Positions 3,913-28,035 of a stretch of 28,444 nt of DNA are shown in pieces. Below the pieces are notes generated by a model. That model did no database searches. It saw only the letters and a list, made by a program, of their open reading frames with translations, and was not told the origin of the DNA. Positions within the stretch are counted from its first letter, which is position 1. Each line of letters begins with the position of its first letter. Origin of the DNA: a virus; IMG/VR virus record IMGVR_UViG_3300020442_000867, positions 1-28,444 of that record; one strand, 5' to 3'. The position numbers and the translations under genes are program-made.

Positions 3913-4787
3913 AGAACGCCATATTTCAATATATGATTATTGGCCCAGAGTGTGACGAACGTGGGCCAGTTCCACAGTGGCCACACGAATCAAGATCAGC
4001 ATTATATAAGAAAACTGCCGATCTATCTGCACTGTCCTTTAAAAAGTATGCAGAGAAAATAGATGCTTTCCATCACTACTCAGAAAAGAAAGTATTCACA
4101 AAAGATAAGACAGGGCCGACAGTTCTATTATTTGAATTGTTGCGTATAATCTACGATCCATTGTATGAACAATTCGACAATGTTTTGTTTTGCGATACTG
4201 ATATCATATGCGACACCGAAGAAAACATTTTTGATATTCACGTTGCAAGTGGAAAAGAAGTCTCTGGTATCACAGAAAGTGATATCTTAGTTGGTGCTAA
4301 TCCAGATGAATGCCTTAAAGGTAATGGTAAAAGTGGATATGCATCGTGGGATCACGATGACAATAAGTTGCAAGAACTTGTTGACAAGTATGATAGATTA
4401 GAAATTCCCGTAAAAACGGGAGAGGAAATGGGTACTAGACACCCAAGTAAAGTATTCATTATGAATACAGGTGTACACGTCTGGACTAAAGATGCACGTA
4501 TGCGTGCTAGAGAATGTTTCGATGATTGGTATACCTATATGATGGATGGCGTAGAACACGATAATCCATTCTGGTTGAATAATGATCAACCATATATCTC
4601 AGGAATGCTGGCAAAGTATGATTTTGAGATTAACCACCTAGAACAAACGTGGAATGATACTCCAACACATTATCACGATGGATATCCTTGTTGGAAAGGG
4701 AAGTCTAAATTCCTACATTACACGGGTGGACAGGGTAAGGCAAAGATGTTGCAATTACGTGAGGAAGGTCAATTTAATTACGTATAA
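3909..4787 (+). CDS. GT-A fold glycosyltransferase, 292 aa
   Basis: Overlaps the peptidase stop by 4 bp. A hydrophobic strand followed by D96-T-D98 in 'NVLFCDTDIIC' (residues 91-101) is the metal- and nucleotide-sugar-binding DxD of GT-A enzymes. 'IMNTGVHVW' near residue 190 matches the later part of such domains. No membrane segment. Donor and acceptor are unknown. It is the first gene of a ~10-kb cassette of sugar-modifying enzymes, although the promoter at 4793 starts a new transcript just after it. Confidence 0.8.
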   Translation: MKNAIFQYMIIGPECDERGPVPQWPHESRSALYKKTADLSALSFKKYAEKIDAFHHYSEKKVFTKDKTGPTVLLFELLRIIYDPLYEQFDNVLFCDTDIICDTEENIFDIHVASGKEVSGITESDILVGANPDECLKGNGKSGYASWDHDDNKLQELVDKYDRLEIPVKTGEEMGTRHPSKVFIMNTGVHVWTKDARMRARECFDDWYTYMMDGVEHDNPFWLNNDQPYISGMLAKYDFEINHLEQTWNDTPTHYHDGYPCWKGKSKFLHYTGGQGKAKMLQLREEGQFNYV

Positions 4788-4792
4788 AACGC

Positions 4793-4821
4793 TTGACAAA
4801 ACCTGCCTTACTTGTTATTAT
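4793..4821 (+). promoter_or_regulatory. Sigma70-type early promoter
   Basis: TTGACA (4793-4798), 17-bp spacer, TATTAT (4816-4821). The spacer holds CCTGCC three bases after the -35. Predicted start of transcription is about 4828, which makes the upstream ATG at 4830 leaderless and favours the ATG at 4851 for the HAD gene. Confidence 0.85.
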
Positions 4822-4850
4822 ACTAAGGTATGAAAAAAGAGAAATTTGAA

Positions 4851-5456
4851 ATGAGCAGTTATGACAACGTAATAGTCACGGACGTAGACGGGGTACTCCT
4901 GAACTGGGGATACGCTTTTGATGTCTGGATGAACGAACAAGGTTATAAGAAAGTAACAGATGAATGGAAGCACTACTGTGTATTTGAACAGTATGGTATT
5001 CCTGAAGCAGAAGGTAAGAAGATGGTTAACCTGTTTAACCAATCTGCGGTTGTTGGATTCTTACCACCCCTCAGAGATGCGATCCATTATGTAAGAAAAC
5101 TCCACGAGGAACACGGATATGTTTTCCACACCGTGACAAGTTTGCATAGTGATAAGAACGCACAAAAACTCAGAATTATGAACCTAGAGAAGTTGTTCGG
5201 TGAAACTGTCTTTGAGAGACACACAATATTAGGTTGTGGTGATGACAAGGACGAAGCACTTGCACCTTACAAGGGTACAGAGTTTTATTGGGTCGAAGAC
5301 AAAGTTGAGAATGCAATAGTCGGTAAAAAAGTTGCGGGACTCAACAGTATCGTGATGGAACACGGTTTCAATATGAACGATCCTGAATTACAAGAAGAAG
5401 GAATTCCTCTTGCTAAGAACTGGAAAGAGATATACGAAATTGTTACTGGTAATTAA
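4851..5456 (+). CDS. HAD-superfamily phosphatase, 201 aa
   Basis: The start at 4851 is preferred. An in-frame ATG at 4830 would lie at the predicted transcription start, while AAGAGAAA sits 7 nt before 4851. Motif I is D11-V-D13-G ('VIVTDVDGVLL'), motif II is T96/S97 and motif IV is E149-D150 ('YWVED'), so the HAD hydrolase core is complete. A roughly 55-residue helical cap lies between motifs I and II. Likely substrates are phosphorylated sugars or nucleotides. In this context a sugar-phosphate phosphatase is the natural guess, but unproven. Confidence 0.8.
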   Translation: MSSYDNVIVTDVDGVLLNWGYAFDVWMNEQGYKKVTDEWKHYCVFEQYGIPEAEGKKMVNLFNQSAVVGFLPPLRDAIHYVRKLHEEHGYVFHTVTSLHSDKNAQKLRIMNLEKLFGETVFERHTILGCGDDKDEALAPYKGTEFYWVEDKVENAIVGKKVAGLNSIVMEHGFNMNDPELQEEGIPLAKNWKEIYEIVTGN

Positions 5457-5460
5457 TTCC

Positions 5461-5468
5461 TATAAATA
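5461..5468 (+). promoter_or_regulatory. T4-type late promoter octamer
   Basis: Exact TATAAATA. The start codon at 5474 follows after only 5 nt, so the predicted late mRNA would be leaderless or nearly so. Confidence 0.65.
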
Positions 5469-5473
5469 CCAGT

Positions 5474-6121
5474 ATGGAAGTTCCATTTTACAGAAAGTAT
5501 TCTCTTGAACCTGAACAGCAGAAGATTCTAAAAACTGCTGTACTTGCATCTATTGAACATATGAAAACCTTGGGTGGTTTTTATTGGTATGATGACAAGG
5601 GCCCAAGAAACCCCGATTCTGTTGACCACGCAGAAGATCAGTCGGGTTTCCGTAAGTTCAATGAGATGAAACTTACATACAATAATATGACATACTCTGA
5701 CTATCATAATAATGGTAAAGAGGGTATGAGAGATTATTGCCCACCATATCGTAATATAGTAAGAACTTACGTACAACCTTTTTTACAACACTACGCAGAG
5801 ATGTGGGGTTGTAGAAATTGGGATATAAGACATCTATGGTTTGCTCAATACGAAGGTGAAGCAGACTTTGGATGGCACACTCACGAAGGTTGTAATATGT
5901 CTGCGATCTATTTCGTTGAAGCTCCCGAAGAACATCACATAACCGAATTTCACGGACTAGATGTGTCTACTGATAATCCTCGTTTCGGAGAATCTATTAC
6001 CGAAGGTGATCTAATGGTATTTCCTGCTATGGTGCCTCACCGTAGTAAACCCATATATAATACCAAGAGAAAAACTATCATCGGTATAAATGGCGAAATG
6101 ATGAATAGTTATCTCGATTAA
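5474..6121 (+). CDS. 2OG-Fe(II) oxygenase-like protein, 215 aa
   Basis: The C-terminal half looks like a double-stranded beta-helix oxygenase. 'WHTHEG' gives H135-x-H137, 'VPHRSKP' gives H189, and R199 in 'TKRKT' could bind 2-oxoglutarate. The usual HxD is HxH here, as in the phage/bacterial TIGR02466-type family ('HxHP' followed by 'LFPxxxPH'). Such enzymes hydroxylate proteins, nucleobases or small molecules. The target is unknown. It has its own late octamer and no upstream Shine-Dalgarno, and is followed after 10 nt by a membrane protein. Confidence 0.7.
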   Translation: MEVPFYRKYSLEPEQQKILKTAVLASIEHMKTLGGFYWYDDKGPRNPDSVDHAEDQSGFRKFNEMKLTYNNMTYSDYHNNGKEGMRDYCPPYRNIVRTYVQPFLQHYAEMWGCRNWDIRHLWFAQYEGEADFGWHTHEGCNMSAIYFVEAPEEHHITEFHGLDVSTDNPRFGESITEGDLMVFPAMVPHRSKPIYNTKRKTIIGINGEMMNSYLD

Positions 6122-6131
6122 GGAGATAAAA

Positions 6132-6527
6132 ATGGCTAAAGAAACAGTAGATTTAGGAGTAGGTGAAGCAAAAGTTGACCTAGAAAAATATACTGAACTT
6201 GTTCTGAAAGTGGACGAAGCGCAAGACAAAATCAAAGAGATGGAAAAACTCTCTAAAGAATTACAGATTGCGACAAAGGCTGCTAAACCCGTAGAAAAAT
6301 TTAGTTTAGGAGCGTTGTTCCGTGATGAGAATGACATTAATGAAAAAGCAATAGTAGGATTCGCATCATTCTTTATGATGGTGTGTTTTGGTATTGTTGA
6401 TTTGGTAACAGGATGGACAGGACAAGACTTTTCAATATCAGATACCATCTATACATCATTTGTCGTAGTGACACTTGGTTGTTTTGGTATATCTGAAGCA
6501 GGAAAGGCATTCAGTTCAAAACAGTAA
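6132..6527 (+). CDS. Two-segment membrane protein with coiled coil, possible holin, 131 aa
   Basis: AGGAG (6121-6125) precedes the ATG at 6132. Residues 17-50 are a charged helix likely to form a coiled coil. Two hydrophobic segments follow, at about 73-93 ('IVGFASFFMMVCFGIVDLV') and 104-122 ('DTIYTSFVVVTLGCFGI'), then a short basic tail. Size and topology fit a class II-like holin, but the long N-terminal coiled coil is unusual and the M15 peptidase lies more than 2 kb upstream. It could equally be an inner-membrane anchor for the sugar-modifying enzymes around it. It abuts the next gene with no gap. Confidence 0.55.
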   Translation: MAKETVDLGVGEAKVDLEKYTELVLKVDEAQDKIKEMEKLSKELQIATKAAKPVEKFSLGALFRDENDINEKAIVGFASFFMMVCFGIVDLVTGWTGQDFSISDTIYTSFVVVTLGCFGISEAGKAFSSKQ

Positions 6528-7343
6528 ATGGAAGGTCTACATAAGATCAAATGGCGTGGTACTTATGGCGTAGGTGACTTTATGCAGGCATTGAATGTCT
6601 GTCATAGGTATTGTTATGATTACAACTTAGGTCAAGTGAATCTAGAGATGCACTGGGAACACGATGAAGATTACATCTATCATCCCAAAGACCCTGAGAC
6701 CATAGTCGAACGTATGACGTGGATACACGAAAAATATAAAGAACCTGAACGTGTATTAGTAACCCACGTCTTTAACTCTATGGAGTTTCATTATGATGAT
6801 GTAGACCAGAAAGTAAAACGTAGGTTCGAGTTTGATAATGATCGGTATGATCCTACGGGCGCACCACCAAATGATTGGGTGTTCGCTGAACGTGAGTGGA
6901 TCAAACCAGAAAAACGAATTGTTATCTGGACACCACATTACAATAAAGAACAACCCCGAAGATGGAAAAGGTGGTTGACAGAAGATGATTGGTCTGATAT
7001 AATAGAGCTGCTCAGGTGGGATGGTTGGGTACTCACTGAGCTGACATATCGTACACCAATAAGAGCTGCGTATGAACAGATACAAAGATGTAAGTTCGTA
7101 GTTTCGTATGATGGAATGTGGCACTATATAGCAAGGAACTTTTGTAAACCACATCTGATACCCAGCAAAGAAGGGATAACAACTTATAATACACCACAGG
7201 CATATAAGTTAAAAAGTCCTGAAGATATGAAAGAGTTTTTCTTACCTGAAAATTTAGATGCAAATCTAAAGAAGATGAACGATAAAGCAAAACTCTTTAA
7301 AGATGATTTAATAGGGAGTATAAACTTCCAGAGAAAAGTATGA
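6528..7343 (+). CDS. Putative GT-B glycosyltransferase, 271 aa
   Basis: The start codon directly follows the preceding stop (TAAATG). The C-terminal half resembles the donor-binding Rossmann domain of GT9/heptosyltransferase-like proteins: 'RIVIWTPHYN' (residues 130-139), a central 'IELLRWDGWVLTEL' strand-helix and 'IQRCKFVVSYDGMWHYIARNF' (residues 184-204), where the last segment looks like the conserved donor site. There is no DxD, as expected for GT-B. No membrane segment. The stop overlaps the radical SAM start by 4 bp. A perfect-looking promoter lies inside this gene (6975-7003). Family call is moderate. Confidence 0.55.
   Translation: MEGLHKIKWRGTYGVGDFMQALNVCHRYCYDYNLGQVNLEMHWEHDEDYIYHPKDPETIVERMTWIHEKYKEPERVLVTHVFNSMEFHYDDVDQKVKRRFEFDNDRYDPTGAPPNDWVFAEREWIKPEKRIVIWTPHYNKEQPRRWKRWLTEDDWSDIIELLRWDGWVLTELTYRTPIRAAYEQIQRCKFVVSYDGMWHYIARNFCKPHLIPSKEGITTYNTPQAYKLKSPEDMKEFFLPENLDANLKKMNDKAKLFKDDLIGSINFQRKV
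6975..7003 (+). promoter_or_regulatory. Consensus sigma70 promoter inside a coding region
   Basis: TTGACA (6975-6980), 17-bp spacer, TATAAT (6998-7003). It could give internal transcription of the radical SAM and later genes. It lacks the CYTGYY spacer block of the other early promoters, and chance occurrence within coding sequence is possible. Confidence 0.4.
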
Positions 7344-8320
7344 AGACTATAATTGAACCTGTATTAGACCGTGCTGTAATAGAAGTTAACGGTGGGTGTA
7401 ATTACAGTTGTAGTATGTGTCCTCAAGATATGAGAACTGGGGGACGTGACAAGAGATTCTTAAGAAAGATGAATCTTCTTGAATTCGAAAACAACGTAGA
7501 ACAATGCGCTGAGATGGGTTTGCGTGTTGTCAATCTAGAAGGTTCTGGTGAACCTACTCTAAACAGAAACTTACCTGAATATATTAAGATCGTAAAGAAA
7601 TATGGTGCGAAAGCATTCTGTTTCTCCAACGGTTTTAGGATGCAAGGTGACTTTATGAAGAGGTGTGTCGATGCTGGTTTAGATTTCTATCGATTCTCTT
7701 TTATAGGTTACAGTAAAGAAAAGTATACTGAATGGATGCATAACAGAGTCGGGGGTAACTTCGATCTGATTTGTAACAACATACGTGAGATGAAAAAGTA
7801 TGTTGATGAGAGTGGTAGTGATTGTGTCGTTGCGACATATCATTTGATCACAGATAACGATAACCTAGAGGAAGAGTTAGATGCGTATAAAAAACTGGTT
7901 GATGACCTTGGAGTTAAAACAGAAATTTGGAAAATGCATAACTGGTCTGGAGTCTATGATAACAAAGATAAACGAACAGGTGAAATCAAAACGTGTGGTA
8001 GACCGTTTTCTCCTGACATTGTTATCCGTGCTGGTGGACTTGATGGACATAGTGGTGCAGTCGCTCCGTGTTGCCAAGTCTTGGGTAGAGACGAAGAAGC
8101 AGTCCTTGGACATACATCCGAAAAGTCAGTAAAAGAAATATGGAATGATATTCCTTACGTAGAACTTAGAGAGGGTCATATTAATGGTGACTATCCAGAC
8201 TACTGTAAAGATTGTGATTTTCTGCTTGACGATCCTGAAGTTTTAGTGTATACTAATCACGAAAGAGACCTGTACAAAATGCACGGTACTGAATTTGATC
8301 TAGATGATTATAGAGAGTGA
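7340..8320 (+). CDS. Radical SAM protein with SPASM-like domain, 326 aa
   Basis: C20-x3-C24-x2-C27 ('CNYSCSMCPQD') is the radical SAM 4Fe-4S motif, and 'NLEGSGEPTLN' (residues 65-75) is the following SAM-binding element. The C-terminal part holds C219, C244, C245, C289 and C292 ('YCKDCDF'), the SPASM-type pattern for extra Fe-S clusters. 'EIWND' (266-270) is typical of that module. Such enzymes modify peptides or small molecules. SPASM members linked to glycosyltransferase clusters are known, but the substrate cannot be inferred. It is coupled to the neighbour at its 5' end by ATGA. Confidence 0.92.
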   Translation: MKTIIEPVLDRAVIEVNGGCNYSCSMCPQDMRTGGRDKRFLRKMNLLEFENNVEQCAEMGLRVVNLEGSGEPTLNRNLPEYIKIVKKYGAKAFCFSNGFRMQGDFMKRCVDAGLDFYRFSFIGYSKEKYTEWMHNRVGGNFDLICNNIREMKKYVDESGSDCVVATYHLITDNDNLEEELDAYKKLVDDLGVKTEIWKMHNWSGVYDNKDKRTGEIKTCGRPFSPDIVIRAGGLDGHSGAVAPCCQVLGRDEEAVLGHTSEKSVKEIWNDIPYVELREGHINGDYPDYCKDCDFLLDDPEVLVYTNHERDLYKMHGTEFDLDDYRE

Positions 8321-8327
8321 CGATAAA

Positions 8328-9113
8328 ATGAGATGTCTAATATATCAAGTTGCGGTTGGTAAACCATCCAAACTATACGAACATTGTATTGACAGTGTTA
8401 GAGAGTATTGTTCAAGATATGGTATTACTCACATTGTACAAAACACACCTAAGATGTGGATCAAACCCGATCCATTTACAACAAACCGTAGTAAAGAAGC
8501 GGTAAGTCGAGTCGGATGTTTACCCATCTTTGAAAAAGAGAATGCGTTCGATTACCTTGATGACTTTGATATGATTGCAATTATCGATGCTGACGTATAC
8601 GTCCGTCCAGATGCAGATAACATATTCTTAGAACCTATGCAAAAGAATTGTGCAATTGCGGTTGCAAGTGAACGTGATATGAATATCAAACCGTGGTATG
8701 CTGAGAAGATCAAGAACTATAGTCATATGCAATACGGATTGTTGCACAGTAACAAAGTTAATTTCTTACCAAACCACCTTGGATTTGAATTCTTTAATAT
8801 GGGAGTTATGTTGATTAACTCTAAGAACTTCAAACCATTCTTACAAGGACAGACAGGCAAACAGTTTATACAGAGAGATGAATTTAAGAGATTCGTTGAC
8901 GGAGAAGGTGCGTGGAAATGGTCAACAGACCAAACACTACTAAACTATTTCCTTAAGAAATATAAAGTACCCACCAAAAAATTACGATCCAAATTTAACG
9001 GATTGTTTACTGCGGTCAATGATATAGAAGATTGTGACTTTGTACACTTCTTCTTAAAAGACAAACTACCTGAACGTGGGGAGAATGTCGAGGAGTTGAT
9101 GAAACAAATATGA
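8328..9113 (+). CDS. GT-A fold glycosyltransferase, 261 aa
   Basis: An in-frame ATG at 8304 would overlap the upstream gene. The ATG at 8328 is chosen because GAGAG lies about 10 nt upstream and the protein proper starts with a beta-strand ('MRCLIYQVAVG'). The DxD is D87-A-D89 in 'FDMIAIIDADVYV'. 'FEFFNMGVMLINS' (about residues 157-169) and 'STDQTLLNYF' (199-208) are the later GT8-like landmarks. Soluble, substrate unknown. The stop overlaps the sulfotransferase start by 4 bp. Confidence 0.8.
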   Translation: MRCLIYQVAVGKPSKLYEHCIDSVREYCSRYGITHIVQNTPKMWIKPDPFTTNRSKEAVSRVGCLPIFEKENAFDYLDDFDMIAIIDADVYVRPDADNIFLEPMQKNCAIAVASERDMNIKPWYAEKIKNYSHMQYGLLHSNKVNFLPNHLGFEFFNMGVMLINSKNFKPFLQGQTGKQFIQRDEFKRFVDGEGAWKWSTDQTLLNYFLKKYKVPTKKLRSKFNGLFTAVNDIEDCDFVHFFLKDKLPERGENVEELMKQI

Positions 9114-9811
9114 AGAGGATTTTTGTACATATCCCGAAGAACGGTGGAATGACATATCGAAAGAACCCTAACATTCGAAATCAGATCATTCTCGCAACAC
9201 CAAATATGCACGTGAGTAAAGAATACACTCGTAAGTTACACGAGGTAATGCATCATCACGGAGAACACGAAGGTAACGAACACGCACGATATATTGATTG
9301 GAATGAAGACATTCGAAACAAATATAAAGCAGTTGCGATAGTACGTAACCCGTGGAGTAGAGTTGTATCTCGATTTGAGTTTGCACGTAAAGTGATATAT
9401 CAAGAGAAAGAATCAGATCATTACGGTGAAACTGACTATATCGATTGTTCATCTTTCGAAGCATTTTTAGATACCAGACATATCTGGGGTAATAAAGAAT
9501 ACTTCTGGCATCGTGCGATACGTGGATGGTATCCCGCATTGGATTATGTCACAGATGAGAACGGTAAAGTGTGTTGTGATATTCTACGATTCGAAAACTA
9601 CAACGAAGATACCAAGGACTATTTTAACCTATTGAGTAACCCTGAACCAAGAAACGTAACTGGATATCTACAGTCTACATATAAGAGTTACTACAATAAA
9701 GACACCATACAAGTCGTAGCAGATTGGTATAAACGTGATATTGATCATTGGGGTTTTGATTTTGATACTGGTGCAACGAGGAATTTTTGGAATGTTAGAA
9801 AACCTGTTTAA
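9110..9811 (+). CDS. Sulfotransferase family protein, 233 aa
   Basis: The N-terminus 'RIFVHIPKNGGMTYR' is the 5'-phosphosulfate loop of PAPS-dependent sulfotransferases (K10 to T15). 'AVAIVRNPWSRVVSRFEF' (residues 74-91, with R79 and S83) is the 3'-phosphate-binding element. Together these match the carbohydrate sulfotransferase group (heparan/chondroitin type), which moves sulfate from PAPS to a sugar hydroxyl. No membrane anchor, so it acts in the cytoplasm. Its place between two sugar-enzyme genes suggests that the product glycan is sulfated. The 3' end overlaps the methyltransferase by 20 bp. Confidence 0.88.
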   Translation: MKRIFVHIPKNGGMTYRKNPNIRNQIILATPNMHVSKEYTRKLHEVMHHHGEHEGNEHARYIDWNEDIRNKYKAVAIVRNPWSRVVSRFEFARKVIYQEKESDHYGETDYIDCSSFEAFLDTRHIWGNKEYFWHRAIRGWYPALDYVTDENGKVCCDILRFENYNEDTKDYFNLLSNPEPRNVTGYLQSTYKSYYNKDTIQVVADWYKRDIDHWGFDFDTGATRNFWNVRKPV

Positions 9812-10406
9812 CAAATATCAATGTGACAAAAGTAAAAAACACAAGTACCATCTTATCTACGAACCTTATTTTGAGAAGAAGCGTTATGATGAAATTAACA
9901 TCCTTGAAGTAGGAACGTTCAAGGGTGCTAGTACATCTGCATTTAGAGATTACTTTCCTAATGCAAACATCTACACAATAGATATCTTTGTACGTACACA
10001 ACCTGAAGACCTATCAATATTACAGGACAAACGAGTACACTGGTTGAAACACGATACAATGAATGCTGGGTTACCTTATGCTATACAAGATGCTTGGGGA
10101 GATATTGAGTTCGACTTTATAATTGATGATGGTGCTCATTGGCCAATGGCAAACCTTCTTACCCTAAAAAACTGTATTCGCTTCCTGAAAGAGAAAGGTG
10201 TTTACTTTATTGAAGATGTTTGGCCGATGGATATTATGTCTTGGAACGAATTGCAAAACCCTTGGTTAAGAGGGAGACCAGAAAGGTATAATAATTTAGA
10301 CAACAATATGTTTGTCGAAGAACTAAAAAAATATAACGTCACTCCGCACGATAATCGTAAACTGTGTGCGCCTGACTCATTCATATATGCGATTAAAACT
10401 AAATGA
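9792..10406 (+). CDS. Class I SAM-dependent methyltransferase, 204 aa
   Basis: The ATG at 9792 is chosen because GAGGAA lies 8 nt upstream. A more upstream in-frame ATG (9735) would overlap the sulfotransferase far more. Motif I is 'ILEVGTFKGAST' (residues 37-48), the acidic end of beta-2 is D64, and 'FDFIIDDGAHWP' (107-118) places Asp-Asp-Gly-x-His as in the cephalosporin hydroxylase/macrocin and rhamnosyl O-methyltransferase group, where these residues bind a metal. A sugar O-methyltransferase is therefore likely. The stop overlaps the next start (ATGATG). Confidence 0.82.
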   Translation: MLENLFNKYQCDKSKKHKYHLIYEPYFEKKRYDEINILEVGTFKGASTSAFRDYFPNANIYTIDIFVRTQPEDLSILQDKRVHWLKHDTMNAGLPYAIQDAWGDIEFDFIIDDGAHWPMANLLTLKNCIRFLKEKGVYFIEDVWPMDIMSWNELQNPWLRGRPERYNNLDNNMFVEELKKYNVTPHDNRKLCAPDSFIYAIKTK

Positions 10407-11134
10407 TGAAAGCACTTATAATATCTCTTACTAATAGTTATCCCGCTCAAATGGCAACACGTCATTTGATGGGTAGTATTAAAAGAACAAAGTCTAAGTT
10501 AGAACCATTGACTATCGATGCAACTACCCCTATGACTTTTCAAGAAGACCTTGATAAGATCGATGAGATTGATGCACGGAATTTGCAATGGACGTGGCCC
10601 ATCGATCCTTCTCAAGATGGTATGGACTTGAACACTGGATTATATAAAAGACACTATGTTACAGACGATATGTTAAAAGTAGTTGCGTGTATGGTATCGC
10701 ATATGAGATGTTGGCAGATGTGTATCGATCTAGATGAGACCGTTGTGATCTTAGAACACGATGCAGAGTTTACTCGTAAGTTTGACTTCGATGATCTCAA
10801 AGAAGACTTTAAAGGTGGGATCATAGGATTGAATCATCCAAAGAATGCAACTCGTAGAGCAAAGGTATTCCACGATAAGGTATCTCAAACAGAAGGTTTA
10901 CAACCTGTACCATCTGTACAGGAATCACACGAAGACCCATTACCGCAAGGACTAGCAGGAAATTCTGCATATGTGATATCACCAGCGGCAGCTAAAAAAT
11001 TACTAAATAAAACAAAAGAGGTTGGTTTGTGGCCGAACGATGCCATAATGTGTAAACAACTATTCCCTTGGATGCAAGTAGTATTCCCATATTACACCAA
11101 GGTACAAGGACTGAAGAGTACAACAACAAAATGA
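10403..11134 (+). CDS. GT25-like glycosyltransferase, 243 aa (first of two)
   Basis: Typical GT25 (LPS-type) landmarks: 'VACMVSHMRCWQ' (residues 94-105), the acidic triad 'ILEHDAEF' (E118-H-D120) on a hydrophobic strand, and 'GNSAYVISPAAAKKLL' near 190-205. GT25 enzymes usually add galactose or glucose to lipooligosaccharide or collagen. The acceptor here is unknown. A second, diverged GT25 lies at 11325. Both starts, at 10403 and 10406, are in frame. The end is coupled to a 63-aa gene by ATGA. Confidence 0.8.
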   Translation: MMKALIISLTNSYPAQMATRHLMGSIKRTKSKLEPLTIDATTPMTFQEDLDKIDEIDARNLQWTWPIDPSQDGMDLNTGLYKRHYVTDDMLKVVACMVSHMRCWQMCIDLDETVVILEHDAEFTRKFDFDDLKEDFKGGIIGLNHPKNATRRAKVFHDKVSQTEGLQPVPSVQESHEDPLPQGLAGNSAYVISPAAAKKLLNKTKEVGLWPNDAIMCKQLFPWMQVVFPYYTKVQGLKSTTTK

Positions 11135-11322
11135 TTACTCCAGTAACAGAAGTAACTGCAATGCCTACAGTATCAAGACGTGTGAATACAGTAGAACGTG
11201 TTCACAATGTAGGAGACGGACAACACAAAGTGGTTGCAACAACATATATTGTAACTACATATGATGATAAAGGGAGACTTGTTTATACGACTAACACTAG
11301 TCAAGTAAGTTATACAGTTTAA
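11131..11322 (+). CDS. Small beta-rich protein, 63 aa, unknown function
   Basis: The ATG at 11131 overlaps the preceding stop by 4 bp. The product is rich in Val and Thr with alternating hydrophobic residues ('HKVVATTYIVTTYDDKGRLV'), suggesting beta-strands, and has no cysteine. No family recognised. It is wedged between two GT25-like genes and conserved in frame with tight spacing, so it may be an accessory subunit. This is inference. Confidence 0.55.
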   Translation: MITPVTEVTAMPTVSRRVNTVERVHNVGDGQHKVVATTYIVTTYDDKGRLVYTTNTSQVSYTV

Positions 11323-11324
11323 TT

Positions 11325-11972
11325 ATGAAACCATTTGTTATAACCATTGAGGATTTGAAAGAGTCGGTAGAGAGTGCCGAACGCTGTATCAAGTCTGGAA
11401 AAAAATATGGTATAAAGGTAAACAAATTTAGTGCCTTTACACCCAAAGACGATCCACTAAAGTTCTTTAAGGAAGAAGGACTTTCACCTATGGGGTTTGA
11501 TGAGGATAAAAAGTATTCTCGAAACCTCAACTGTCTATCCGCATTCAGATCGCATTACTCGTTATGGAAACAATGCGTCAAGGAAAATGTCAACTATCTT
11601 ATCCTTGAACACGATGCAGTTTTTAAAGACAAACTACCGATCATAGGATTCGGTGATATCTGCAACTTTGGAGCACCATCCTATGGATCATTTAATACAC
11701 CACATAGACTAGGATTGAATGGACTCACTTCTAAGTTATATTTGCCAGGAGCTCACGCATATGCAATTACCCCATTGGGAGCACGCTTACTCATTAACCA
11801 AGCTAAAGTTTACGCAAGACCAACAGACGTTTTCATTAACCTACACGCTTTCCCCGACATCAAAGAATACTACCCTTGGCCCGTGGAAGCAGTTGATGAC
11901 TTCACAACCATACAACACGAAGGTGGATGTGGAGCTAAACATCGATACAGTGAGGAGTACAAAATAATATGA
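11325..11972 (+). CDS. GT25-like glycosyltransferase, 215 aa (second of two)
   Basis: Same layout as the protein at 10403 but clearly diverged: 'CLSAFRSHYSLWKQC' (residues 70-84), 'YLILEHDAVF' with E95-H-D97, and 'PGAHAYAITPLGARLLI' around 141-157. Soluble. Starts 2 nt after the previous stop and ends in an ATGA overlap with the next gene. Two GT25 enzymes in one operon suggest two successive sugar additions or different linkages. Confidence 0.78.
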   Translation: MKPFVITIEDLKESVESAERCIKSGKKYGIKVNKFSAFTPKDDPLKFFKEEGLSPMGFDEDKKYSRNLNCLSAFRSHYSLWKQCVKENVNYLILEHDAVFKDKLPIIGFGDICNFGAPSYGSFNTPHRLGLNGLTSKLYLPGAHAYAITPLGARLLINQAKVYARPTDVFINLHAFPDIKEYYPWPVEAVDDFTTIQHEGGCGAKHRYSEEYKII

Positions 11973-12616
11973 ATATGTTCGTAACAGGATGTGACAGTAA
12001 CACAGAATGGCAGTTACCGTGGTTTCTTGCAAACTACAAAAGTCACACTACCTCACCTATATTGATCTGTGATTTCGGTATGACCGAAGAGATGCAAGAC
12101 TTTTTAGTAGACTACAATGTAGTTAAAGTAACACCAGATGCAGAAGGTTGGTTCAAGAAACCCTTTGCAATACTCGAAGCGTTAAACTTCGCAGATAAGG
12201 TTTGTTGGATCGATACTGATTGTCAAATCAAAGCAAATCCAGACGATATCTTTTTGCACAGTGAACCAAACAAACTAAGTATGGTTGAAGATAGACCTTG
12301 GTCTAATCGAAGACCCGACCTTGGTAAGTGGTACAACTCTGGTGTTGTTATGGTGGAACGAACACCATATATATTAAAAGAGTGGGCAAAAAACTGTTTA
12401 CGGGAAGCGAATCCTGTACAGGGAGACCAAGAGGTTTTACATATGATGATGGGTGGTGATGAACTAACCAAACTCATTTACATAAACCCCTTACCACATA
12501 AGTATAACACCCTACGTATTGATTACATCGATGGGATCGCAGATAAGAATCCTGTCATAGTACATCATACAGGACGTAAGGGAAAAGAAGAAATAAGAAG
12601 GCAGATAGATAAATGA
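11969..12616 (+). CDS. GT-A fold glycosyltransferase (GT8-like), 215 aa
   Basis: DxD at D82-T-D84 in 'KVCWIDTDCQIK' and a 'YNSGVVMVERTPYIL' segment near residues 117-131 with the conserved N-S/T-G of GT8-like enzymes. A late 'HHTGRKG' (residues 198-204) supplies the usual C-terminal His ligand. Overlaps neighbours at both ends by ATGA. Substrates unknown. Confidence 0.78.
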   Translation: MNMFVTGCDSNTEWQLPWFLANYKSHTTSPILICDFGMTEEMQDFLVDYNVVKVTPDAEGWFKKPFAILEALNFADKVCWIDTDCQIKANPDDIFLHSEPNKLSMVEDRPWSNRRPDLGKWYNSGVVMVERTPYILKEWAKNCLREANPVQGDQEVLHMMMGGDELTKLIYINPLPHKYNTLRIDYIDGIADKNPVIVHHTGRKGKEEIRRQIDK

Positions 12617-12831
12617 ATTATTTAATCGAAGCGTTAGTTAAAAAACTCGAAGGAGAGATCGCTGTTGCTAAGGCAAACATCGATGTCTATTGTAAAAACG
12701 CCGCTGGTATTGGGGAACATCCTGATATCGTAGAAGCGATTGAAACACAAATCGCTAGGATTGCGGAAGCGGAAGATAAATTAAATGTTGCTCATAATCA
12801 TTTTGGGCACGGGAAATATAAAGATGTATGA
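12613..12831 (+). CDS. Small helical conserved phage protein, 72 aa
   Basis: An alpha-helical hairpin: residues 1-30 and 37-65 are both amphipathic helices separated by 'GIGEHPD' (residues 32-38). Similar small proteins occur in T4-like cyanophages, with no known role. ATGA overlap upstream and an 8-bp overlap with the nuclease gene downstream. Confidence 0.65.
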   Translation: MNYLIEALVKKLEGEIAVAKANIDVYCKNAAGIGEHPDIVEAIETQIARIAEAEDKLNVAHNHFGHGKYKDV

Positions 12832-13186
12832 ATATAGATGCAAACTCGATAGGGTTGTTGATGGGGATACTGTTGATGTTGACATTGATCTGGGATTCGG
12901 TGTCTGGTTACGAAAGCAAAGGATCAGACTTTTTGGAATCAATGCGCCAGAAAGCAGAACAAGAGACCTTGAAGAAAAGAAAAAAGGATTAGCTGCAAAA
13001 CAATTTGTGGTTGACTTTTTGGATGATGAGTATCTAATTCTCAAAACTGAGACTTATGATGCTACTGGTAAATATGGTCGTATCCTTGGATCGATCTTTA
13101 GAACAACAGATTATGCAGATAAGTCTGTTAATGAATACTTGGTTGAGAAGGGTCACGCAGTACCCTATTTTGGCGGAAAAAGGTAA
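12824..13186 (+). CDS. Thermonuclease (SNase-like) protein, 120 aa
   Basis: 'VVDGDTVDVDI' (residues 11-21), 'RLFGINAPE' (35-43) and 'GKYGRILG' (82-89) are the three staphylococcal nuclease-like motifs, giving R35, E43 and R86 as the catalytic set and Asp residues for calcium. Position 40 is Asn where S. aureus nuclease has Asp, a common variant. No signal peptide, so it should act inside the cell or in the virion on DNA or RNA. The start at 12824 overlaps the previous gene by 8 bp. It is out of place functionally among glycosyltransferases. Ends in TAATG coupling. Confidence 0.9.
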   Translation: MYEYRCKLDRVVDGDTVDVDIDLGFGVWLRKQRIRLFGINAPESRTRDLEEKKKGLAAKQFVVDFLDDEYLILKTETYDATGKYGRILGSIFRTTDYADKSVNEYLVEKGHAVPYFGGKR

Positions 13187-13836
13187 TGAGAGTAAATATC
13201 TTAGGTAATGGTGATAATGCTGGTATCTTTCAAAGAGGTACTGAAGGTAAGTTACTAGTATGTAATATGCCTCCATTTGAATTGACTAAAAAAGAAGTCT
13301 TTGCAACTGTTATGGTCGATTTCAAAATGATGAAAGCATTGACTGAAGGTAAGATCAAACTGGATATGTATGATTGGATTCTTGGAACACGTCCACGTAA
13401 ATGGATGGAGTTGCGAGGAGACTTCTACCTAAGATATGCACCAAATGTAAAAGCATTCTACCAACACGTACCCAAGTATGCCGCTGTGGATGGTAATCCC
13501 GCAATGGCAGCCACTAACTTTAATTGTGGACATATGGCAACACACTATGCGTGTGCTAAAATGAATGCAACTGAAGTACACCTATATGGATTCGATAGTC
13601 TGTTTGAAATGAATCTTAACTCATTTACAGACTTGTTATTAGAATCAGACCGTAGTCAGAACAACACCTTTAGACTTAACAATAACTGGAGACCAATCTG
13701 GTATCATATGTTTAGAGAGTTTAAAGATGTGAAGTTCGTACTTCATCATATCCACGATAAAATAAAGATAGATATTCCAGAGAATGTCGAAGTAGAAGCA
13801 CATAACAAAAAGGTTGACAAAAAGGGTTGGGGTTGA
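13186..13836 (+). CDS. Rossmann-like protein, possibly GT42/DUF115-type glycosyltransferase, 216 aa
   Basis: It begins with a strand-loop 'VNILGNGDNAGIF' (residues 3-15) reminiscent of the CMP-sialic-acid-binding start of GT42 sialyltransferases and MptE/DUF115 proteins. 'FNCGHMATHYACAKMNATEVHLYGFDSLF' lies near residues 112-140 with the typical 'LYGxD' turn. No DxD. Coupled by TAATG to the nuclease and last in the cassette. The early promoter for tRNA-Arg starts inside its last codons. Call is tentative. Confidence 0.5.
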   Translation: MRVNILGNGDNAGIFQRGTEGKLLVCNMPPFELTKKEVFATVMVDFKMMKALTEGKIKLDMYDWILGTRPRKWMELRGDFYLRYAPNVKAFYQHVPKYAAVDGNPAMAATNFNCGHMATHYACAKMNATEVHLYGFDSLFEMNLNSFTDLLLESDRSQNNTFRLNNNWRPIWYHMFREFKDVKFVLHHIHDKIKIDIPENVEVEAHNKKVDKKGWG

Positions 13837-23344: not shown

Positions 23345-25324
23345 TTAGTCTTCTGGTTTTAGATTATTATCTGTTGCACCTTGAGAGTCACCAGATATTG
23401 CTATTCCACTAGAGGAGTTAGATGAGTTGTCAGTAGATGAATTGTCAACGATGTTTACTGTGTTTCCAGAACTTTGCATTTCAGCAGTTTCTAGTTGTTG
23501 TTCTGAGATTTGCATACCCGCACCATTACCACCTGCTACTGCAAGTGTAGGAGAAATACCTAGTGCGCCTGTTATTTGTTGTATCTTTCCACTGATCTCT
23601 TCGATCTTAAGACCTTCATCTAGGATACCGTGAGGCCCAAAATCTACACCACCACCAAAGAAACCACCACCGACATTTACAGATTTGCCAGCTAATTGTT
23701 CAGGATGAGTACCACCAAGTGCCTGAATAAATGGTATCGCTTGTCCGACACTACCAAGTAATTGTGTAAAGTCAATCGATGGCCCAGTTAGATTCAGTGA
23801 AGAGAATCTCTCAAGTGCAACAACCATTCTTGAAATGTTTCGTTCAGTGGATGCGATCTCTTGGTCTTTTTCTGCAAGTTTTAACATCTCATCAATAGGA
23901 GATTCACCACCAGTAAAGAAGTTTAGGATACCAGTAGCTGCGTTTGCAAGAGATGATACAAAAGTACCACCAGCGAACTTTCCTAAACCTTCTGATAGAT
24001 GACCCATTGCAACATTTACTTGAGATGCTTTCTCTTCTATATTACCGTCAATTGAATCAGGGATTGATAATAGTTGTAGTACGTTTTCTTTTATCTTCGC
24101 ACCAAACTCAGGTGATTGGAATGAGTTTAGAATAGAACCAATACCAAAGGCAGCTAGTCCTAGACCAATACCTGTCATTGCAAGACCGAACGCACCACCA
24201 TCTGCCAACATATCAAGGTTTCCGCCAAGTGAATCTTTTATTGATAATAAGGTTAGTACGTTTGTTTTTATGTTTTCTGCGAATTCACCAGATTGGAATA
24301 ACTCTGTTGCACCAGCAAGTCCAGCGATACCTGAACCAACACCGAATACTGCAAGACCAGTACCTATACCTGTCATCGCCGCTAAGAATACACCACTGGT
24401 TGTCAATAAATCTACGTTACCGCCAAGTGAATCTTTGATGGATAATAGGGTTAGTACATTTTGTTTGATACCTTCTGCAAATTGACCACTAGTAAATACA
24501 TCCATCGCTGTTGATATACCACCAACAGCAGAACCCGCTCCAAAGACTGCAAGACCAGCAGCGATACCTGTCATCGCAAGTAAGAATGCAGCTGAGTCTC
24601 CAATAAATGCCAATGCACCACCAAGTTCATCACTGATGGACATTAAGGTGATTACGTTTTGTTTGATACCTTCTGCCCAGTTACCTTGACCAAAGTAATC
24701 TAGAAGACCTTGGGACATACCCGCAACAGTAGAACCAACACTGAATACTGCAAGACCAAGACCGATACCTGTCATTGCAAGTAAGAATGCACCACCGCCT
24801 ACAAAGAAATCACCAGCACCACCCACATCATCTTTAATTGATATTAGAGTTTTTACCTTTTCTTTGATCTCATCGGCATCCATCTCATTAAGAGAATTGA
24901 TGAGCATTCCAGCACCACCCGCCAATAAACCAGCACCAGCGAGTAAAGCACCACCACCCATAAGTCCACCTTTGAGTGTTTTACCCATACTCGCAAGTAG
25001 TCCACCAGCACCTTTAGCAGCTTTTGATGACGCACTTACTGTTGCTTGTTTAACACCACTAATTCCATCCGCAATTTTTCCAAAGAGATTTCTGTTCTCT
25101 CGTTCTTTTTCTGCGTTATCACCTTGATTTTTCTTGTTCTCTTTTTGTTGAGTACCAAATCCAGTTTGAAGAACAGAACTGATATCAAGGAGTTTTTCTC
25201 CCGTATCAGTCTTCAGCGTATCAGCTATATGATCTGTATTCTTAGCATCTGTAGTCTGATTCGCTTGTAATTGCTCTAAAATCTTCTGTAGTTTAGCAGC
25301 TTGTGTTTCTTTGTTTATGGGCAT
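23345..25324 (-). CDS. Tape-measure-like tail protein with internal repeats, 659 aa
   Basis: Three regions are visible. Residues 1-95 are a polar, Gln/Lys-rich helix. Residues 105-456 are Gly/Ala/Leu-rich with hydrophobic helices and four to five repeats of about 66 residues ('IKxNVLTLLSIKDSLGG...AMTGIGxGLAVFGxGS'). Residues 560-659 are Gly/Ser/Asn-rich. Length, repetition and position right after the chaperone-like gp26/frameshift pair fit a tape-measure protein, the role of gp29 in T4. At the usual 1.5 angstrom per helical residue it would span a tail of roughly 100 nm. No direct similarity to T4 gp29 that I can see. Confidence 0.65.
   Translation of the reverse strand: MPINKETQAAKLQKILEQLQANQTTDAKNTDHIADTLKTDTGEKLLDISSVLQTGFGTQQKENKKNQGDNAEKERENRNLFGKIADGISGVKQATVSASSKAAKGAGGLLASMGKTLKGGLMGGGALLAGAGLLAGGAGMLINSLNEMDADEIKEKVKTLISIKDDVGGAGDFFVGGGAFLLAMTGIGLGLAVFSVGSTVAGMSQGLLDYFGQGNWAEGIKQNVITLMSISDELGGALAFIGDSAAFLLAMTGIAAGLAVFGAGSAVGGISTAMDVFTSGQFAEGIKQNVLTLLSIKDSLGGNVDLLTTSGVFLAAMTGIGTGLAVFGVGSGIAGLAGATELFQSGEFAENIKTNVLTLLSIKDSLGGNLDMLADGGAFGLAMTGIGLGLAAFGIGSILNSFQSPEFGAKIKENVLQLLSIPDSIDGNIEEKASQVNVAMGHLSEGLGKFAGGTFVSSLANAATGILNFFTGGESPIDEMLKLAEKDQEIASTERNISRMVVALERFSSLNLTGPSIDFTQLLGSVGQAIPFIQALGGTHPEQLAGKSVNVGGGFFGGGVDFGPHGILDEGLKIEEISGKIQQITGALGISPTLAVAGGNGAGMQISEQQLETAEMQSSGNTVNIVDNSSTDNSSNSSSGIAISGDSQGATDNNLKPED
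23957..24868 (-). repeat. Four to five tandem ~200-bp coding repeats in the tape-measure-like gene
   Basis: Repeat units start at residues 153, 220, 286, 352 and 411, each opening with IKxxV and, for the first four, containing AMTGI. Units 1-3 are 66-67 residues, the fourth 59 and the fifth is partial. Units 3 and 4 share 'NVLTLLSIKDSLGGN'. Confidence 0.85.
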
Positions 25325-25326
25325 AA

Positions 25327-25518
25327 TTACGTGCCTTTATTTTGTTGTTTCCTTCGTTCGTTTTCTTCCTTAATATAATCTAACAATAATGAAACATATA
25401 TCTCCCTCTCCCAAGGCATCATCATCTCAAGTTCAGTTAAACTGTAATGATGATGTTGCATCATACTAAAGTTAGTCTGATAATGATTGACTAACGTTTC
25501 GTGAGAGAGGCCTATTAG
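25327..25518 (-). CDS. 63-codon -1 frame extension of gp26 (tail chaperone-type), reached by frameshift
   Basis: After the slippery site this frame runs 63 codons to the TAA at 25327-25329. It encodes a helical, charged peptide with 'LVNHYQTNFSMMQHHHYSLT' and 'PWEREIYVSLLLDYIKEEN', of a type seen as a small gene behind gene 26 in T4-like marine phages. It has no start codon near its 5' end. The first ATG pair (25464, 25461) is 19 codons in and lacks a ribosome binding site. A 7-bp hairpin GTTAGTC/GACTAAC (25495-25489 with 25477-25471) lies downstream of the slippery site. It ends 3 nt before the tape-measure start. Confidence 0.7.
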   Translation of the reverse strand, partial: LIGLSHETLVNHYQTNFSMMQHHHYSLTELEMMMPWEREIYVSLLLDYIKEENERRKQQNKGT

Positions 25519-26225
25519 AAAAAATCTATGAGTCCTCTTAGTTCTCTATCATTCTCGTGTTCACATTTCTTACAAGTGAACTTAACATTTTCAGTAAGAG
25601 TTGGGATTTTTCCTAACCACTCAGCGACCATCTTAAATTGATCTCCTGTCATAGACTCTACGAATTCACGTAGATCATTAACAGAAATTTCGCTACAGTC
25701 GATTCTTTCCTCTTCTGTTTGAATACCTACAAGTGATGCAATCAACGTATTAACCAATGTTTCGGTTTGTGATGCTTCAGATGTTGCAACTTTTAAAAGT
25801 CTTTCAGCAGATGGGAATGCAACTTCAACAGAAATACCATCTTGTATTTCAATAACTCCAGTTGTTTCATCAACAACAGAATCCATTGAAACGTTTGCAA
25901 GATTCACTTCTACTAAATTTGCAGTATTACAACTTTCACAACTAATGTTAATATTACTTGTTTCACCTACAGACTTCGCACGAATCTGAGTAAACATATA
26001 CTCAACATCGAAAGTCTTAAGGGTTTTGCGATCTAGATTACCATCAACACAAACTAATATTGTATCGATGATTGCCTTCATCGCAGCTTTTGGATCATTC
26101 TGTTCGAATGCCATCAATAACACCTTTTCCTCTTTAACGAGGTAAGGTCTATAACGAACCGTCTCTTGAGTAGACGGAATCACCATTTCATATTTTGGTG
26201 ATGTATTCAGCTTTGGTAGTGCCAT
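25515..26225 (-). CDS. gp26: gp26-like baseplate hub/tail assembly protein, 236 aa (fusion about 299 aa by frameshift)
   Basis: Matches the T4 gp26 (T4_baseplate) family in overall layout: N-terminal 'RYRPYLVKEEKVLLMAFE' (25-42), 'FDVEYMFTQIRAKSVGE' (72-88) and two Cys pairs, C96-x2-C99 and C218-x2-C221, that could bind one zinc. The second ATG (26225) is preferred to 26228 since AGGAG then stands 6 nt upstream. The gene ends 'GLIDFF' with T_TTT_TTC and then TAA TAG. In T4, gp26 is needed for baseplate hub assembly. The arrangement here is that of tail assembly chaperones. Confidence 0.82.
   Translation of the reverse strand: MALPKLNTSPKYEMVIPSTQETVRYRPYLVKEEKVLLMAFEQNDPKAAMKAIIDTILVCVDGNLDRKTLKTFDVEYMFTQIRAKSVGETSNINISCESCNTANLVEVNLANVSMDSVVDETTGVIEIQDGISVEVAFPSAERLLKVATSEASQTETLVNTLIASLVGIQTEEERIDCSEISVNDLREFVESMTGDQFKMVAEWLGKIPTLTENVKFTCKKCEHENDRELRGLIDFF
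25518..25524 (-). promoter_or_regulatory. T_TTT_TTC slippery heptamer (-1 frameshift site)
   Basis: The heptamer is in the exact X_XXY_YYZ phase relative to the gp26 frame: GAT TTT TTC followed immediately by TAA. Slipping by -1 bypasses the stop and enters the 63-codon frame. Confidence 0.7.
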
Positions 26226-26238
26226 CATATTCTCCTAA

Positions 26239-26949
26239 TTATGATAAAAATTTCTGTATCAATGTTCCCGCAAGTCCTTCTGCGAAACCATCGTTTTCGG
26301 TGACTTGATCACCGTCTTTACTTATCCAATCCTTATAAGATAACTGTACAGTTACCTCAAGGAGTGAATCCGCTTCACTAGTCAATTCAATTGCACTTAG
26401 TGATGTAGGGTAGGCCTTCTCTAATACACAAGTATAAGTGATTTTATCACCAGTGATAAAGTCGAGATCAAACTCACCTTGTGCTAAGTCGAGAGGGCCC
26501 AATCTAGGTAATCTACCCGCAATCCCTGAAGGTATTTTACCAGAATCAAATAATTTTCTTTTCTTTACAGGGAAACCAACTCCCTTTTTAATGTGTTGAA
26601 GAATAACTGGGTGAGTGTAGTCATTGTAATAACCCACTTCGTAGTTCGCACGGTTTACTGCGAGTTCTTGCCAGTCTTCAAAATATCTACGTATCTTATA
26701 GTCATTCATTAAGTAGAATACTAGAGTTACGTCTTCAACTATGAATCCGTTTGCTATTTTCTTTTGTGTGAGACCCATCATCTTTTCTGTAGATTGAATC
26801 TGTCTGCCTGGGATGTTAAACCCTTTACACAAAACATCTAGGGATCGAGAATCGCCTTTTAGTGGTGGTAGAAAAACTCTGAACAGGTTGTTGACTGCAA
26901 ACCCGCCTGCTTTACCTACTTCTGATTTAAAATCGTCTATGTTATGCAT
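26239..26949 (-). CDS. Tail-tube-fold baseplate protein, 236 aa
   Basis: 'LDVLCKGFNIPGRQI' (38-52), 'IVEDVTLVFYLMNDYKIRRYFEDWQ' (70-94), 'YYNDYTHPVILQHI' (107-120) and the C-terminal 'EVTVQLSYKDWIS' (199-211) are the landmarks of the gp19/Hcp-like tail tube family in T4-like phages. At 236 residues it is larger than gp19, so a baseplate tube-initiator role (gp54/gp48-like) is more likely than the main tube protein. Overlaps the upstream gene by 8 bp. Confidence 0.7.
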   Translation of the reverse strand: MHNIDDFKSEVGKAGGFAVNNLFRVFLPPLKGDSRSLDVLCKGFNIPGRQIQSTEKMMGLTQKKIANGFIVEDVTLVFYLMNDYKIRRYFEDWQELAVNRANYEVGYYNDYTHPVILQHIKKGVGFPVKKRKLFDSGKIPSGIAGRLPRLGPLDLAQGEFDLDFITGDKITYTCVLEKAYPTSLSAIELTSEADSLLEVTVQLSYKDWISKDGDQVTENDGFAEGLAGTLIQKFLS

Positions 26950-27544
26950 CTATCATCTTCCTAGAATCTGAATATACTTTCTGTCTACTTGCCTTTCTAA
27001 ATTGTGCGGTTGGTAAGAAAGTTGCGATCTCCCATTCTGGTGCCTCAACTTCTGAAAACTTACTTTGTACGTGTGCATTCAAATAGTGTTTGAAACAAGG
27101 TTTATAGTATTTTAGTTTAGAAACCCTTTGTAGAGTTTTATATGTAAGTGCGAATGTTTCGTTTGCACCTTTACCCCTAGTTCCAATCTCCATCAACGCA
27201 TCTAACATCTTTGCACGTAATACGGGCGGAAGATAATGTAGATTCAAACCATAGAATCCACCCTTCGCTGGCCCAACCACAATGACAAGAGGAAAGTAAT
27301 CGTAATAGGGTAGAGTATCTTTTGTCTTTGGATCGTAGAAAAACATCTGCATAGTACCAATTAATGCACGTCCCTTTGGTAACGCAGTACGTTGGGTCAA
27401 AGGGTCTTCTTTCATCAACTCTTGTCTCTTGATAGAACGTAAGTTAGATGCCTTCTTTTGAAACCAAGCACGGGATTCCTTAGTACGTGGTGTAATACCA
27501 GCACGGAATGCCTGTAACTCTAATCTATTAAATATGTTCGACAT
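26942..27544 (-). CDS. Conserved T4-like phage protein in the tail/head module, 200 aa, identity uncertain
   Basis: Basic protein with 'GRALIGTMQMFFYDPKTKDT' and 'LPYYDYFPLVIVVGPAKGGF' (residues 58-97), then 'YGLNLHYLPPVLRAKMLDALME' (98-119). I recall this central block from marine T4-like phages as a virion-associated or DNA-end-related protein, but cannot fix its T4 equivalent. It does not look like gp53. The start at 27544 is 5 nt behind a late octamer, and AGAAG within that short gap is the only ribosome-binding-like sequence. Confidence 0.65.
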   Translation of the reverse strand: MSNIFNRLELQAFRAGITPRTKESRAWFQKKASNLRSIKRQELMKEDPLTQRTALPKGRALIGTMQMFFYDPKTKDTLPYYDYFPLVIVVGPAKGGFYGLNLHYLPPVLRAKMLDALMEIGTRGKGANETFALTYKTLQRVSKLKYYKPCFKHYLNAHVQSKFSEVEAPEWEIATFLPTAQFRKASRQKVYSDSRKMIDA

Positions 27545-27549
27545 ACTTC

Positions 27550-27557
27550 TATTTATA
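27550..27557 (-). promoter_or_regulatory. T4-type late promoter octamer
   Basis: TATAAATA on the minus strand. It contains the TAA stop of gp4 and lies 5 nt before the ATG at 27544. Confidence 0.65.
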
Positions 27558-28035
27558 CAGATTTCTTACGTCTTTTAAATGGTTTCAGAGGTTTTGTGGA
27601 TTTAGGCATAATACCCATACTGGTTAGAGTTTTCTCTGTCCATATTTGGAACTCCCATCCTCGATCCTTTGCGTAATTATCAGCTGCTTCCCACTTATTC
27701 ATATTCTTGACATAGGTTGCAGCTTCTGTCATAAATTTGCGAGTACGTCTTGATCCTGTAGGGGGTTTGGTTTCTTTGTCGGGTTTTACTTCCACTAGAA
27801 TGGTTTTACCATCCTCAAAACTTATTTTGAGATCAATAAAGTATCGATGCGGTCTTTTGTCTACCTCATATAGATAAGGTATAACGACTTCTTCAGAAGA
27901 CCACGATTTTACCTTGGGGTTTACATCACACCATCTGAAGCAATGTCTCTCCCACAGAGAACGAAAAATGACTTGTGTATGGTCACCACTGTACTTCTCT
28001 GGATTTTTTACTCTGTATCTACCTTTATATGCCAT
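27553..28035 (-). CDS. gp4: gp4-like head completion protein, 160 aa
   Basis: 'MAYKGRYRVKNPEKYSGDHTQ' corresponds to 'MAYSGKWVPKNISKYRGDPKK' of T4 gp4. 'RSLWERHCFRWCDVNPKVKSW' (25-45), 'VIPYLYEVDKRPHRYFIDLKI' (51-71) and 'ILVEVKPDKETKPP' (79-92) carry the nuclease-like E/D...E-x-K core (D68, E82, K84). gp4 finishes the packaged head before tail joining. Slightly longer than T4 gp4 (150) with a basic C-terminal tail. No clear late octamer is seen directly upstream on this strand. Confidence 0.92.
   Translation of the reverse strand: MAYKGRYRVKNPEKYSGDHTQVIFRSLWERHCFRWCDVNPKVKSWSSEEVVIPYLYEVDKRPHRYFIDLKISFEDGKTILVEVKPDKETKPPTGSRRTRKFMTEAATYVKNMNKWEAADNYAKDRGWEFQIWTEKTLTSMGIMPKSTKPLKPFKRRKKSV

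Follow-up and report, generated by a model that had tools for sequence, protein, structure and literature searches.

The window, by which we mean the whole stretch of DNA that was analysed (28,444 nucleotides, positions 1 to 28,444 of IMG/VR virus record IMGVR_UViG_3300020442_000867), carries on its minus strand, in this order, genes for head closure, a DNA end protector, the tail tube and a gp26-type protein, followed by a -1 frame extension of the last of these and by a gene for a 659-aa protein. The features of the region are as follows:

27553..28035, minus strand: head closure gene (gp4-like), syntenic neighbour (phrog_218, E 1e-54)
26942..27544, minus strand: DNA end protector gene (gp2-like), syntenic neighbour (phrog_429, E 1e-48)
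26239..26949, minus strand: tail tube gene, syntenic neighbour (phrog_45 tail tube, E 3e-32)
26232..26236, minus strand: Shine-Dalgarno (SD) sequence AGGAG of the gp26-type gene, from sequence and anti-SD energy
25515..26225, minus strand: gp26-type gene, 236 aa, putative short form (equivalent of G / TAC-N)
25533..25538, minus strand: internal SD-like motif AGAGGA upstream of the heptamer, proposed stimulator
25518..25524, minus strand: slippery heptamer T_TTT_TTC, in phase, read directly
25512..25517, minus strand: zero-frame stops TAA TAG immediately 3' of the heptamer, from sequence
25327..25518, minus strand: -1 frame extension, 63 codons and a stop, putative T / TAC-NC extension (gp51 C-terminal domain)
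25471..25495, minus strand: 7-bp hairpin GTTAGTC/GACTAAC (arms 25489-25495 and 25471-25477), from folding, possible stimulator
23345..25324, minus strand: gene for the 659-aa protein, tape-measure candidate by position only, 2 nt after the extension stop

The gp26-type gene runs from an ATG at 26225-26223 to a TAA at 25515-25517 on the minus strand, and family searches assign its product to Pfam PF12322 (T4_baseplate, E 3e-50) and to phrog_150 (E 4e-50). Its relatives begin MALPKL at the ATG corresponding to 26225, where the anti-SD energy is -7.3 kcal/mol. Read directly on the minus strand, the 3' end of the gene is ...GGA CTC ATA GAT TTT TTC TAA TAG, which bears out a sequence-only reading of this DNA that had placed T_TTT_TTC in phase with a stop directly after it. 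The -1 frame starts at the C of TTC, is open from 25518 down to 25330 and closes with a stop at 25329-25327; its translation is LIGLSHETLVNHYQTNFSMMQHHHYSLTELEMMMPWEREIYVSLLLDYIKEENERRKQQNKGT. The 63 open codons and the fusion of ~299 residues claimed in that reading were both recovered (236 + 63 residues, giving a predicted fused product of 299 aa), and its 3-nt distance to the next gene is corrected to 2 nt, counted from the stop to the ATG at 25324. In PHROG searches the extension hits phrog_634, 'baseplate hub assembly catalyst', at E 1e-27 and, at E 2e-5, the C-terminal part of phrog_150, some members of which are evidently fused forms. ATG codons do occur inside it, at codons 18-19 and 31-33, but those at codons 18, 19 and 31 are without anti-SD pairing (+0.4 kcal/mol) and those at codons 32 and 33 pair weakly (-1.5 and -2.7, as against -7.3 at the gp26 start), so that the extension can still be said, as before, to lack a usable start.

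To ask whether the slip site and the -1 frame are conserved in T4-like relatives, the check that the sequence-only reading had proposed, relatives were drawn from IMG/VR and isolate records, giving 185 loci, 151 of them distinct over the gp26 C-terminus plus extension. The -1 frame is kept, and TTTTTTN stands in phase at the same place in all 151 distinct loci (N being C in 84, T in 55, A in nine and G in three). The codon before the T run is AGT, GAT, AAT, TCT or GCT, all ending in T although the residue encoded may be S, D, N or A. A zero-frame stop follows within 0-1 codons of the heptamer in 147 of the 151, and in 37 loci a stop codon lying 0-3 nt before the heptamer closes the -1 frame on its upstream side, so that in these the shift must happen at the T run. 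Conditional on the amino acids and on the codon usage of each gene, the probability of retaining the heptamer by chance is ~1e-19 over 42 clusters (<50% identity), a value to be read as an order of magnitude since the clusters are not wholly independent. Of 70 internal x-Phe-TTN triplets elsewhere in gp26, used as a control, only 8 form TTTTTTN, and the conservation of the heptamer exceeds chance. It is found in Pseudomonas, Sinorhizobium, Rhizobium, Agrobacterium, Stenotrophomonas, Aeromonas and Vibrio phages, and was seen again in two phages read afterwards, S-CREM2 and one of Desulfovibrio. One relative (L068:1501-2260) has a zero frame that runs nine codons past the heptamer before its stop.

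The sequences flanking the slip site hold two candidate stimulators. Upstream, the start of an SD-like motif clusters 12-15 nt before the heptamer in most loci, and the motif pairs with the 16S tail more strongly than synonymously recoded sequences do (z -4.1 for 42 clusters and -5.9 for 73), while for a single locus alone (L001, near-identical to the window locus) the AGAGGA motif is not significant. The E. coli dnaX frameshift has a comparable SD-like upstream stimulator. Downstream, folding confirmed the 7-bp hairpin noted previously, which begins 22 nt after the heptamer. Across the family, excess foldability is greatest ~20 nt beyond the heptamer (mean z -1.62, s.e. 0.18, with control offsets between -0.4 and +0.4), a peak that coincides with the offset of the window hairpin. 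The register of the hairpin is not common to the family: no consensus downstream RNA structure was found over 61 relatives, and an Rfam search gave no match.

The same two modules are recognisable in T4. T4 gp26 consists of the T4_baseplate domain alone, and T4 gp51 of a T4_baseplate domain followed by ~48 residues homologous to the extension. An HMM built from the extensions of frameshifting phages matches the C-terminus of T4-type gp51 (1e-13 for phiP4-3, 5e-12 for Aeromonas 31 and 1e-7 for T4) and gives no match to T4 gp26. The family profiles of one-gene gp26 and of gp51 align along almost the full domain (E 4e-13), a family-level comparison that supersedes an earlier, weak one between an 8-sequence gp26 profile and the single T4 gp51 sequence. 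PF12322 is present in two copies in each of six genomes (T4, RB43, Aeromonas 31, Acinetobacter KARL-1, an RB49-like phage and phiP4-3) and in one copy in each of a further 14. The heptamer is present in 13 of these one-copy genomes and missing from that of Klebsiella phi1_146041. By these counts, phages with the predicted frameshift carry one T4_baseplate gene, and T4, RB49, RB43 and their kin carry two (gp26 and a fused gp51). The window and T4 thus share a homologous PF12322 domain and a homologous C-terminal extension, but T4 has two paralogous, divergently oriented genes and no frameshift where the window has one gene and a predicted frameshift.

The closest counterpart in organisation is the pair formed by gp26 and a short 'gp51' in cyanophages (Kyanoviridae, e.g. 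P-SSM2 and S-RIM8), which have the same gene pair, heptamer and -1 frame, although the two are annotated there as separate genes and the window gp26 is only 33-39% identical to those of P-SSM2, C48C1, Melnitz-3 and S-RIM8. It was remarked in 2010 that cyanophage gp51 is ~20% as long as T4 gp51 and lacks its first 200 residues (PMC3037559); the frameshift would explain this, with gp26 supplying the residues in question.

A predicted structure of the window gp26 (pLDDT 93.5) connects the protein to known tail assembly chaperones (TACs). Its N-domain matches 3FGX (Z 8.0) and the HK97 TAC 2OB9 (Z 7.5), scores that the tool's own note treats as borderline; the matches span the first ~90 residues (about 85 aligned), and the next row has Z 3.5. 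3FGX (Rbstp2171) is regarded as a tail assembly chaperone (PMC9603447). A fold search with a T4-type gp51 model had no TAC among its top matches. Like lambda gpG/gpGT and HK97 gp13, the window locus combines a short form with a -1 frameshift extension, and the N-domain fold match is to HK97 gp13 itself (2OB9); unlike them, it shares no sequence family with these proteins and has a further domain after about residue 96. The lambda slippery site, G_GGA_AAG, also differs from that of the window.

Taken as a whole, these features make it highly probable that this marine T4-like phage produces a 236-aa short and a 299-aa long tail assembly chaperone from one gene by programmed -1 frameshifting. In this reading, most ribosomes in the cell would stop at the TAA, yielding the 236-aa short form (TAC-N, like lambda gpG), and a minority would slip one base back on U_UUU_UUC and add a helical C-terminal extension, yielding the 299-aa long form (TAC-NC, like lambda gpGT). 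Slippage would be helped by the upstream SD-like motif and probably also by downstream RNA structure. In the lambda model, gpG binds the tape measure and the T domain recruits the tube protein (PMC5009743); by analogy, coating of the tape-measure protein would fall to the short domain and recruitment of tail-tube subunits to the extension. T4 would make the same two products from its paralogous genes 26 (short) and 51 (long, fused). The earlier proposal of a -1 frameshift making G/GT-type chaperones, and with it a link between T4 hub-assembly factors and the G/GT system, is therefore supported by the conserved heptamer and -1 frame, the lack of a usable start, the homology to the gp51 C-terminus, the HK97 fold match and the short and long paralogues of T4.

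The frameshift could be real and its products nevertheless be components of the baseplate hub rather than G/GT-type chaperones. The annotation is that of baseplate hub proteins, older T4 genetics put gp26 in the hub, and, against a chaperone reading, the LIMEstone1 record labels its gp26 a confirmed structural protein. In the S-CREM2 virion, however, the proteome contains ORFs 203, 204 and 208-213 but neither gp26 (ORF 206) nor the extension (ORF 207) (PMC10665884), as expected for assembly factors, and together with the TAC-like fold, the G/GT-like architecture and the published identification of TACs in T4-like phages (see below) this makes a hub role in place of a chaperone role unlikely. 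The two roles may in fact be compatible, the T4 tape measure gp29 being itself a hub protein; PMC3004832 lists T4 gp26 and gp51 among the hub assembly chaperones, with gp51 essential and of unknown function.

A second alternative is that the extension is a small gene in its own right, as cyanophage gp51 is annotated, translated from its own start or by termination-reinitiation. Databases do annotate it as its own CDS, with inconsistent starts, and 55 of 142 loci have an ATG three codons beyond the slip site. Yet 14 of the 142 have no ATG before the conserved motif and three contain no start codon of any kind, the first ATGs available in the -1 frame are without an SD across loci (median anti-SD energy +0.1, versus -5.9 for gp26 starts), and the extension residues upstream of any ATG are conserved among relatives. 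A separate gene would also leave the heptamer unexplained, and T4 gp51 carries the extension fused; we consider it very unlikely.

RNA polymerase slipping on the T run, instead of the ribosome, could change the frame as well, and T runs of 7-8 are present in 55 of 151 loci. In the other 96, the window included, the run is exactly six, which is shorter than usual for polymerase slippage, and the SD-like motif and RNA structure are intelligible only if ribosomes do the slipping, leaving this explanation with a very small probability. Finally, the homopolymer at the site invites the idea that an assembly or sequencing artefact created the stop and that the gene is one plain ORF; conservation refutes this, the same break recurring at the same codon and always into the -1 frame in 185 loci that include isolate genomes.

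With programmed frameshifting as the preferred reading, we compared trees to place it relative to the two-gene state. In a tree of T4_baseplate domains, one-gene proteins, gp51 domains and gp26 proteins form separate groups, except for RB43 gp26, which sits on a long branch; this agrees with a single duplication. In a portal-protein tree, the two-gene phages form one group (98/95) that adjoins the frameshifting Aeromonas phage Ahp1 (100/99), with frameshifting Vibrio phages (94/92) and then Pseudomonas Milchi (97/98) further out. Because the two-gene phages are nested among frameshifting ones, the frameshift is probably older and the two-gene state of T4 probably derived, a polarity that is inferential since the tree was rooted at its midpoint and that holds unless the root falls inside this group.

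One set of phages departs from the canonical site. CBA120, LIMEstone1, KNP4, phiA8-29, Vibrio D531 and Klebsiella phi1_146041, which belong to the Ackermannviridae or are similar to them (loci L185:2580-2770, L275:3190-3400, L276:3210-3440, L279, L280 and L281), keep a -1 extension without a canonical X_XXY_YYZ heptamer. The extension is conserved, with an MPWH motif, and is phrog_9633-like in the three of these phages that were scanned. Immediately ahead of the stop, all six have NTT TTC A in frame, which may serve as the slip site unless the extension is started in another way. The sequence-only reading had held that relatives without a slippery site, in which the downstream frame has its own start and ribosome binding site, would refute frameshifting; these phages go part of the way towards that, keeping the -1 frame while lacking the canonical heptamer. 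On balance we lean towards a scheme in which the T4 superfamily makes one chaperone pair in three ways: by an ancestral U6 frameshift with SD-like and structural stimulators, in marine and many other lineages; by a single later gene duplication giving 26 and 51 in the T4/RB49/RB43 clade, as the portal-tree nesting suggests; and by an unrecognised non-canonical site, NUU_UUC_A, in the Ackermannviridae.

Much of the general picture has been published before. A 2016 review described the G-T frameshift as widely conserved and named T4 as an exception. As reported in papers that cite their work, Vladimirov, Gautam and Davidson (Virology 2022, 566:9-15) identified gp26/gp51 as the tail assembly chaperones of T4-like phages, some of which are said to combine a short gene with a longer, fused one (PMC10885494), and the TAC-N genes of such phages are already known to contain poly-T frameshift signals (PMC12846349); to judge from these accounts, the assignment of gp26/gp51 and most of the general picture date from 2022. 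The TAC locus of Vandenendeviridae and Andersonviridae (PMC12846349) resembles that of the window in having a poly-T slippery signal that ends TAC-N and a -1 extension annotated separately, but its motif is GTTTTT and the phage families are different. The portal-tree polarity, the stimulator statistics and the Ackermannviridae exception were not found in the literature searched, in which Vladimirov 2022 was represented by the papers citing it.

Most T4-like lineages sampled thus carry the very tail-chaperone frameshift that the 2016 review denied T4, and T4 itself appears to have lost it by splitting the products into two genes, which suggests a case of gene duplication replacing a programmed frameshift. 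It is probable that the starts annotated for 'gp51' genes across hundreds of cyanophage genomes are false, and these genes should be merged with gp26.

We infer from position only that the 659-aa gene downstream is the tape measure. The protein has no match to a tape-measure family, nor indeed to any Pfam or PHROG family; its phiM12 counterpart has weak matches to tape-measure PHROGs (best E 1.8e-5). In S-CREM2, whose tail measures 418 nm, two giant virion proteins called 'endolysin' (ORFs 208 and 209, 1565 and 1456 aa; L269:2184-11255) directly follow the chaperone gene, and their counterparts in S-N03, with a tail of 138 nm, have 933 and 722 aa. It is possible that ORFs 208 and 209 are tape-measure proteins misnamed endolysin, a suggestion only, as tail-length scaling among these cluster C cyanophages is not clean and neither ORF after the extension scales threefold between S-CREM2 and S-N03. 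Inspected by eye, the translation of the 659-aa gene shows several Gly-rich hydrophobic repeats (GIGLGLAVFGVGS-like). On the plus strand, a run of ORFs adjoining the structural genes (3909-13836 of the window) has translations that, again by eye, resemble glycosyltransferase, methyltransferase and radical-SAM type enzymes.
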